A stretch of DNA of 64,000 nt, taken from assembly GCF_947503385.1 (NCBI RefSeq), contig NZ_CANNDO010000003.1, forward strand, positions 310,001-374,000, read 5' to 3'. The notes under the pieces are model-generated. The model saw only the letters and a list, made by a program, of their open reading frames with translations. It ran no database searches and was not told the origin of the DNA. Source of the stretch: an uncultured Tateyamaria sp. GTDB lineage: Bacteria > Pseudomonadota > Alphaproteobacteria > Rhodobacterales > Rhodobacteraceae. A program made the translations under genes and the position numbers. This document shows positions 2,861 to 3,251 of the stretch, piece by piece; position 1 is the stretch's first letter, and every line of letters begins with the position of its first letter.

Positions 2861-2875
2861 GTTCTATATTTGTTC
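2861..2875 (+). promoter_or_regulatory. LexA (SOS) box GTTC-N7-GTTC
   Basis: GTTCTATATTTGTTC is an exact match to the direct-repeat LexA operator known from Alphaproteobacteria (GTTC-N7-GTTC). It sits 26-40 nt before the ATG at 2901, the right place to overlap the promoter. The AT-only spacer is also typical. No other such box was noticed in the intergenic regions I read closely. Confidence 0.65.
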
Positions 2876-2900
2876 TCACTCAAGAGAACGGATATGTCAC

Positions 2901-3251
2901 ATGAGCTATCATTCGACCCAACCCGGACTTTTTGACCCCGCACAGGGGTCGTTGCCGATTGCGCCAGCGCAGCCCGCGACTGAAAAACAAATCAGTTACG
3001 CCAAGGCGTTGGCCGCCAAAACCGGCAAAGCGCTGCCGCAGGCCGTCATGCGCGACAAGGCGATGTTGTCGGCATGGATCGACAGCGCAAAGCCGCCAAA
3101 ACCTGAAGGCCGGTTCTCGGATTATCCAAGTGCCAAGCAGGTGCAGTTTGCCGAACGCATCGCGCGTCTGAAGCGGCGTGACATTCCACAAATGTGTTTC
3201 AAGGATCGCACGCTCATGTCCCGCTGGATTGACGGCAACAAACCACGCTGA
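2901..3251 (+). CDS. Putative SOS-regulated protein with two 37-residue repeats, 116 aa
   Basis: I do not recognise a named family. The ATG at 2901 is chosen over 2859 because the longer form would run through the LexA box. Residues 29-65 and 79-115 are an ungapped internal duplication, each beginning KQ, then an aromatic-Ala pair, P-Q, R/K-D, and ending in WID followed by KP. Similar short KQ...A...WID modules occur, in my recollection, at the ends of topoisomerases and other DNA enzymes. Near the N-terminus, QPGLF (residues 7-11) fits the loose beta-sliding-clamp-binding pattern QxxLF. With the LexA box upstream this suggests a small DNA-damage-response protein, possibly acting at the replication clamp. 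The gene is certain enough; the role is inference. Confidence 0.75.
   Translation: MSYHSTQPGLFDPAQGSLPIAPAQPATEKQISYAKALAAKTGKALPQAVMRDKAMLSAWIDSAKPPKPEGRFSDYPSAKQVQFAERIARLKRRDIPQMCFKDRTLMSRWIDGNKPR

Follow-up and report, generated by a model that had tools for sequence, protein, structure and literature searches.

A LexA-boxed repeat protein from a Tateyamaria genome as a probable, previously undescribed DNA-damage response protein

A 116-codon gene of an uncultured Tateyamaria sp. probably encodes an undescribed DNA-damage response protein, consisting of two tandem repeats of the kind found in the tails of type IA topoisomerases and lying behind a conserved LexA box. The gene was analysed within a window of 64,000 nucleotides (the whole stretch under study, contig NZ_CANNDO010000003.1, positions 310,001 to 374,000). 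At the level of sequence, the geometry of operator and promoter is conserved, the repeats are homologous to topoisomerase tails, the enzyme core is absent and the charge is basic. We infer that LexA binds the operator and that the gene is induced by DNA damage because the box is conserved, because known SOS genes of the same genome carry it, and because the operator form GTTCTTGTTATGTTC of some homologs matches one already described. A description of the repeat-protein gene was not found in the open-access literature searched. The features of the window to which the text refers are as follows.

2842 to 2847, + strand: −35 hexamer TTGAAA, 17 bp ahead of the −10 hexamer
2861 to 2875, + strand: putative LexA operator GTTC-N7-GTTC, GTTCTATATTTGTTC; exact box kept by 89 of the 92 homolog rows
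2865 to 2870, + strand: −10 hexamer TATATT, between the two GTTC half-sites
2901 to 3251, + strand: putatively SOS-controlled repeat protein gene, 116 codons plus stop; 66 of the 295 genomes scanned in the window's family have a homolog
2919 to 2933, + strand: QPGLF peptide, residues 7-11, part of the N-terminal tail modelled at low confidence; as QxxLF not conserved
2976 to 3098, + strand: repeat 1 (residues 26-66), three predicted helices
3126 to 3248, + strand: repeat 2 (residues 76-116), the most conserved part, with the basic helix R86-R93 and W109

The box, the 116-codon gene, the internal duplication and the QPGLF peptide reported in a preliminary description of this DNA were all located where it had placed them. 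Translation is assigned to the ATG at 2901, 25 nt downstream of the end of the LexA box; an alternative start at 2859, which would give a protein of 130 aa, is unlikely because it lies inside the operator and −10 region. The duplication is real: residues 29-65 and 79-115 align ungapped with 13 of 37 positions identical, a score reached by only 1 of 2000 shuffles when offsets of 20-79 were scanned, and profiles of repeat 1 and repeat 2 from 32 sequences align with an hhalign probability of 98.2 (E 4.5e-14). The predicted structure of the window protein has a mean confidence of 80 and a pTM of 0.47, falling to 54-57 in the N-terminal tail, and gives the unit helix lengths of 14-5-11. All proteins in the homolog set are basic (pI 9.64-11.57 across the 92 rows), and their near-invariant positions lie mostly in repeat 2, including R89, K91, R92, R93, W109, I110 and N113.

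The 92 rows comprise the window gene, L033-L077, L112-L156 and L162, and contain 88 distinct proteins; left aside were two contig-edge fragments (L157, L158), a 48-aa fragment (L160), the topoisomerases L159 and L078, places already counted (L161, L104-L106) and the weak G212 place of the family scan. The scan of named genomes returned 17 loci, 16 from Tateyamaria and one from a Persephonella MAG. At least 8 of 385 genomes in the class scan had a match, the window's family accounting for three, as did at least 5 of 398 in the phylum scan, all from that family, both counts being lower bounds with only 11 candidates scored in many genomes. Matches were also found in 149 plasmid records (76 typed conjugative, 61 non-mobilizable and 12 mobilizable), and no relative in the phage records and viral contigs searched. 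Given its presence in only 66 of the 295 family genomes, the protein does not belong to the core repair machinery. The ORF upstream of the window gene, which we take to be rimO, recurs as a rimO-like ORF nearby at 14 of the 16 Tateyamaria loci and at all six of a further group (L033-L038), whilst none of the window's neighbours recurs at the 23 loci L039-L061. Outside the family, one repeat unit on its own is present in a small ORF, L107 (G520:C56).

Counting boxes in one genome was rejected as evidence for LexA control. The window contains one exact GTTC-N7-GTTC match, at 2861-2875, against 2.08 expected, and the whole genome 115 against 155 for the reversed control pattern, numbers that would suit a box present by chance in front of a gene that LexA does not control. 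The preliminary description had proposed a search for homologs with the same box, and here the picture is different: an exact box stands near the promoter in 89 of the 92 rows, in a fixed promoter geometry, against 0.2 rows expected (calculated from 91 of the loci, whose 234,593 bases beyond the operators hold 5 boxes). The window box alone is not above chance, but its conservation in homologs raises it above chance, and we regard a fortuitous box as extremely improbable. The three rows without an exact box are L059 and L150, which by eye have apparent one-mismatch versions, and L148, in whose upstream region no box was seen. The form GTTCTTGTTATGTTC is present in nine homolog rows and is reported in PMC12700426 as the LexA box for a pair of SOS genes in Caulobacter.

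The operator takes up either of two registers on one promoter, the second shifted by 11 bp. In 59 rows the box occupies the 17-bp spacer from −35 to −10, and in 25 rows, including the window type, it lies 11 bp lower with the −10 hexamer between its half-sites; at either position a bound repressor would be expected to block RNA polymerase. Three rows (L038, L039 and L050) have three half-sites covering both registers, where about 0.3 such operators would be expected by chance on a hand estimate, and two rows have an exact box in some other setting. Among the 87 rows that have a GTTC-TA anchor, 81 show a TTG-type −35 hexamer at a distance of 16-18 bp, four show a relaxed form and two show none. 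The triple-half-site forms could be intermediates of an operator shift by one helical turn. A quick tree gave 5 register changes without the triple forms and 6 with these assigned to the downstream register, its strongly supported branches forcing only about 2, and the number of shifts is uncertain because 51 of the 85 inner branches are unresolved.

The same exact box precedes established SOS genes in the window's genome. A LexA domain is present (8.1e-16), its match at C2:354795 having a box upstream at 354726, and the recA match on the minus strand (C2:148301-149089) is preceded by a box at 149205; an imuB-like gene (IMS domain, 2.3e-19) and dnaE2 each have one as well. SOS control by LexA, as first proposed, thus gains strong support from a box that is conserved across the homologs and also present before lexA, recA, imuB-like and dnaE2 genes, and on sequence grounds we consider it close to certain that the repeat-protein gene is under LexA control.

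A separate observation concerns DnaE2 (ImuC). A GTTCTATATATGTTC box lies at C4:212311, ahead of a 139-codon OB-fold gene (PF01336, 1.1e-11; L092:1501-1934, corresponding to G000:C4:212311-212744) that is related to the DnaE2 C-terminus. The main dnaE2 frame has 1000 codons (L188:580-3579, G000:C1), and the OB domain is absent from its protein and from the surrounding 4.7 kb. Within the genus this domain is found in a frame of 152-392 codons in 17 of 19 genomes and in a 1116-codon frame in the other two; outside the genus it is found in frames of over 1000 codons in 6 of 12 genomes, with no match in the remaining six. An exact LexA box lies a short way ahead of the gene at each of the 12 stand-alone OB loci examined. 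DnaE2 therefore seems to be split in this genus, with the polymerase core and the C-terminal OB domain separate and each behind its own LexA box; the term OB-fold was not found in the papers retrieved on this subject.

The tandem units of about 41 residues are, very probably, homologous to C-terminal repeats of type IA topoisomerases. With E-values that are flattering, because these topoisomerases came from a search with the repeat-protein family itself (per-genome values are 4.8e-6 to 7.8e-5, and 5.3e-12 for L159), the repeat 2 HMM had its best match in L159 (3.7e-22) and the repeat 1 HMM matched L078 (8.7e-15), L108 (3.7e-7), L109 (4.2e-7), L111 (3.5e-6) and L110 (1.3e-5), against a best E of 0.26 among 1200 shuffled sequences. 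Repeat 2 alone reached only 0.077 for L110 and gave no match for L111. Pfam recognised a topoisomerase core in L078, L159, L108 and L109, and we take L110 and L111, by eye, to be topoisomerases too. The matching unit in the L078 tail has predicted helices of 14-5-17, from an alignment made with the window family. No Toprim or Topoisom_bac core was found by Pfam in the window protein. The unit itself is unlabelled in the type IA topoisomerases L108:1234-3168, L109:1204-3153, L159:538-2910 and L078:1345-3375, with no Pfam name above the cut-off for the tail units of any of the four; two of these enzymes end in DUF5710, L109 above the cut-off and L108 just below it.

Such a kinship raises the alternative that the free tail influences the host topoisomerase in trans and alters supercoiling or decatenation during repair, by providing an extra grip on DNA or by competing for the binding sites of the enzyme's own tail. 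In support of this, repeat 2 and the last L159 repeat share 55-63% identity across 40-49 residues in all nine genomes or records searched. However, no topoisomerase with these repeats was found in the window's own genome, where the match between the type IA enzyme and L159 is confined to residues 9-593, and the same genome has no convincing second copy of the unit (only L002, E 0.15, taken as chance), so that we consider an action on the host topoisomerase fairly unlikely.

Searches for a family name or a known fold returned sub-threshold candidates. The window protein has no name above threshold in Pfam, NCBIfam or PHROGs and no PADLOC match. DUF3072 (PF11272) was rejected at 13.4 bits against a cut-off of 27.5 (E 0.072); among 32 relatives, six gave a hit to it with E no higher than 1, the best at 0.0075, and no paper on it was found in the open literature. 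Also rejected were IS4_FS_Nterm (0.071) and an Arc-like repressor phrog (0.065) for the window protein, and TfoX_N (16 of 32 relatives, best 0.031) and TyeA (9 of 32, best 0.002), sub-threshold Pfam matches that were not taken as real. In the PDB there was no match at E 0.001 or better, either by sequence or by fold with models of the window protein and of the L078 tail. With no solved relative, the argument for DNA binding rests on charge and topoisomerase context, from which we consider it likely that the repeat protein binds DNA.

The plasmid copies offer a further explanation, namely that the protein is a plasmid-establishment factor which later settled in the chromosome beside the rimO-like ORF and which might, for example, temper the SOS response or protect incoming single strands, like PsiB or SSB. 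The LexA box is present in all five plasmid copies inspected, and antirestriction genes lie close by in four of the five contexts, two of them independent. In L099-L101 a zincin-like metallopeptidase gene is two genes from the repeat-protein gene, and farther away are a ParB-like gene and DUF3768; the metallopeptidase of L099, the one tested of the three, has the Pfam ArdC N-terminal domain (2e-32). In L172 (pAMI8) an antirestriction protein gene adjoins the repeat-protein gene. These neighbours, and the 76 conjugative types among the 149 plasmid records, favour a mobile-element role, but L099-L101 share one plasmid type (rep_cluster_579) and count once, plasmid 1 of Paracoccus denitrificans (L171) has ordinary metabolic neighbours and no antirestriction gene, and 61 of the 149 plasmids are typed non-mobilizable. 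Moreover, the copy beside rimO keeps its synteny across several genera and is therefore chromosomal and old, phage records and viral contigs gave no match, and no likeness to PsiB came up; we consider an origin as a plasmid helper unlikely. On pTPRO2 (L099:6181-8466), the neighbours are the ArdC-type antirestriction gene and two hypothetical genes, for which no Pfam or PADLOC names were obtained.

The preliminary description had gone further than SOS control and proposed that QPGLF, read as a QxxLF motif, docks the induced protein on the DnaN clamp as a checkpoint or repair helper. The peptide does lie near the N-terminus, a PGLF-like core is kept in the rimO-side group, and L047 (MQLSLF, with QLSLF) and L041 (MQHSLF, with QHSLF) look like good clamp motifs. 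Against this, QxxLF is found in only 10 of the 92 rows; among the 18 nearest, eight have it and ten carry L in place of Q (LPGLF). Such a lack of conservation is what the preliminary description had itself named as counting against its proposal. In addition, plasmid forms start MESTTYALPATPKQ or similar, without the motif, and the tail is modelled with the low confidence given above. A motif so distributed does not define the family, and whilst a weak or lineage-specific contact with the clamp may exist, clamp docking as the protein's working principle is very unlikely. The earlier interpretation is thus supported in part, strongly for SOS control by LexA and weakly for the clamp-docking checkpoint.

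The reading we prefer is that of a LexA-repressed SOS gene, and the odds somewhat favour the whole chain up to DNA binding at damaged sites. DNA damage would lead to RecA filaments that trigger LexA self-cleavage, which would free the operator over the −10 hexamer and allow the strongly basic 116-residue protein to be made. This product would consist of two three-helix topoisomerase-tail units and a short variable N-terminal tail, with no enzyme core, and would bind DNA, probably single-stranded or forked, through the conserved basic helix and the Trp-Ile-Asp helix of repeat 2. It may then help as a small accessory protein at sites of damaged or stalled replication, its binding site and effect being a guess. 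The idea can be put to a direct test in the harmless laboratory strain Paracoccus denitrificans PD1222, which carries a copy with the box (PDEN_RS25350).

Most of what is known about SOS regulons comes from a few model species, and small SOS proteins without an assigned function have in the past been a source of new checkpoints and repair aids. If the reading is right, it adds an SOS effector that lives on both chromosomes and plasmids, assigns the unlabelled topoisomerase tail unit a name and a probable function connected with DNA, and provides a natural series of LexA operators shifted by one helical turn. More tentatively, and with the odds against it, LexA-controlled free-standing tail repeats might be a dedicated SOS effector of the order Rhodobacterales and its plasmids, concerned with DNA topology or with single strands at damaged forks, and might belong to a broader tendency of this genus to detach C-terminal domains of DNA enzymes and place them under their own LexA operator, the OB domain of DnaE2 being the second case.

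Among known systems, SidA is a membrane protein, and a transmembrane helix defines division inhibitors of the SidA/DidA type. No sufficiently hydrophobic stretch for such a helix was found in any of the 92 rows, the highest 19-residue hydropathy being 1.07 over all rows and 0.37 in the window protein, which argues against the SidA- or DidA-like role suggested in the preliminary description; DidA is, moreover, described as SOS-independent (PMC4211646). Caulobacter SidA, a LexA-regulated small protein and SOS-induced division inhibitor, shares the GTTC-N7-GTTC operator over the promoter (motif in PMC12700426), but unlike SidA the window protein has no predicted transmembrane helix. The likeness to DUF3072 (PF11272) is limited to repeat 1, which weakly resembles its K-Q...I-D pattern (hhalign probability 19.8, P 0.0012), whereas repeat 2 of the window protein fails to align. 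The closest likeness is to the tails of type IA topoisomerases, the TopA of a Persephonella MAG (L078) and the topoisomerase III-like L159, L108 and L109, with which the window protein shares the unit of about 41 residues and its predicted helix pattern; unlike these enzymes, it stands without the enzyme core and has its own promoter and LexA box.
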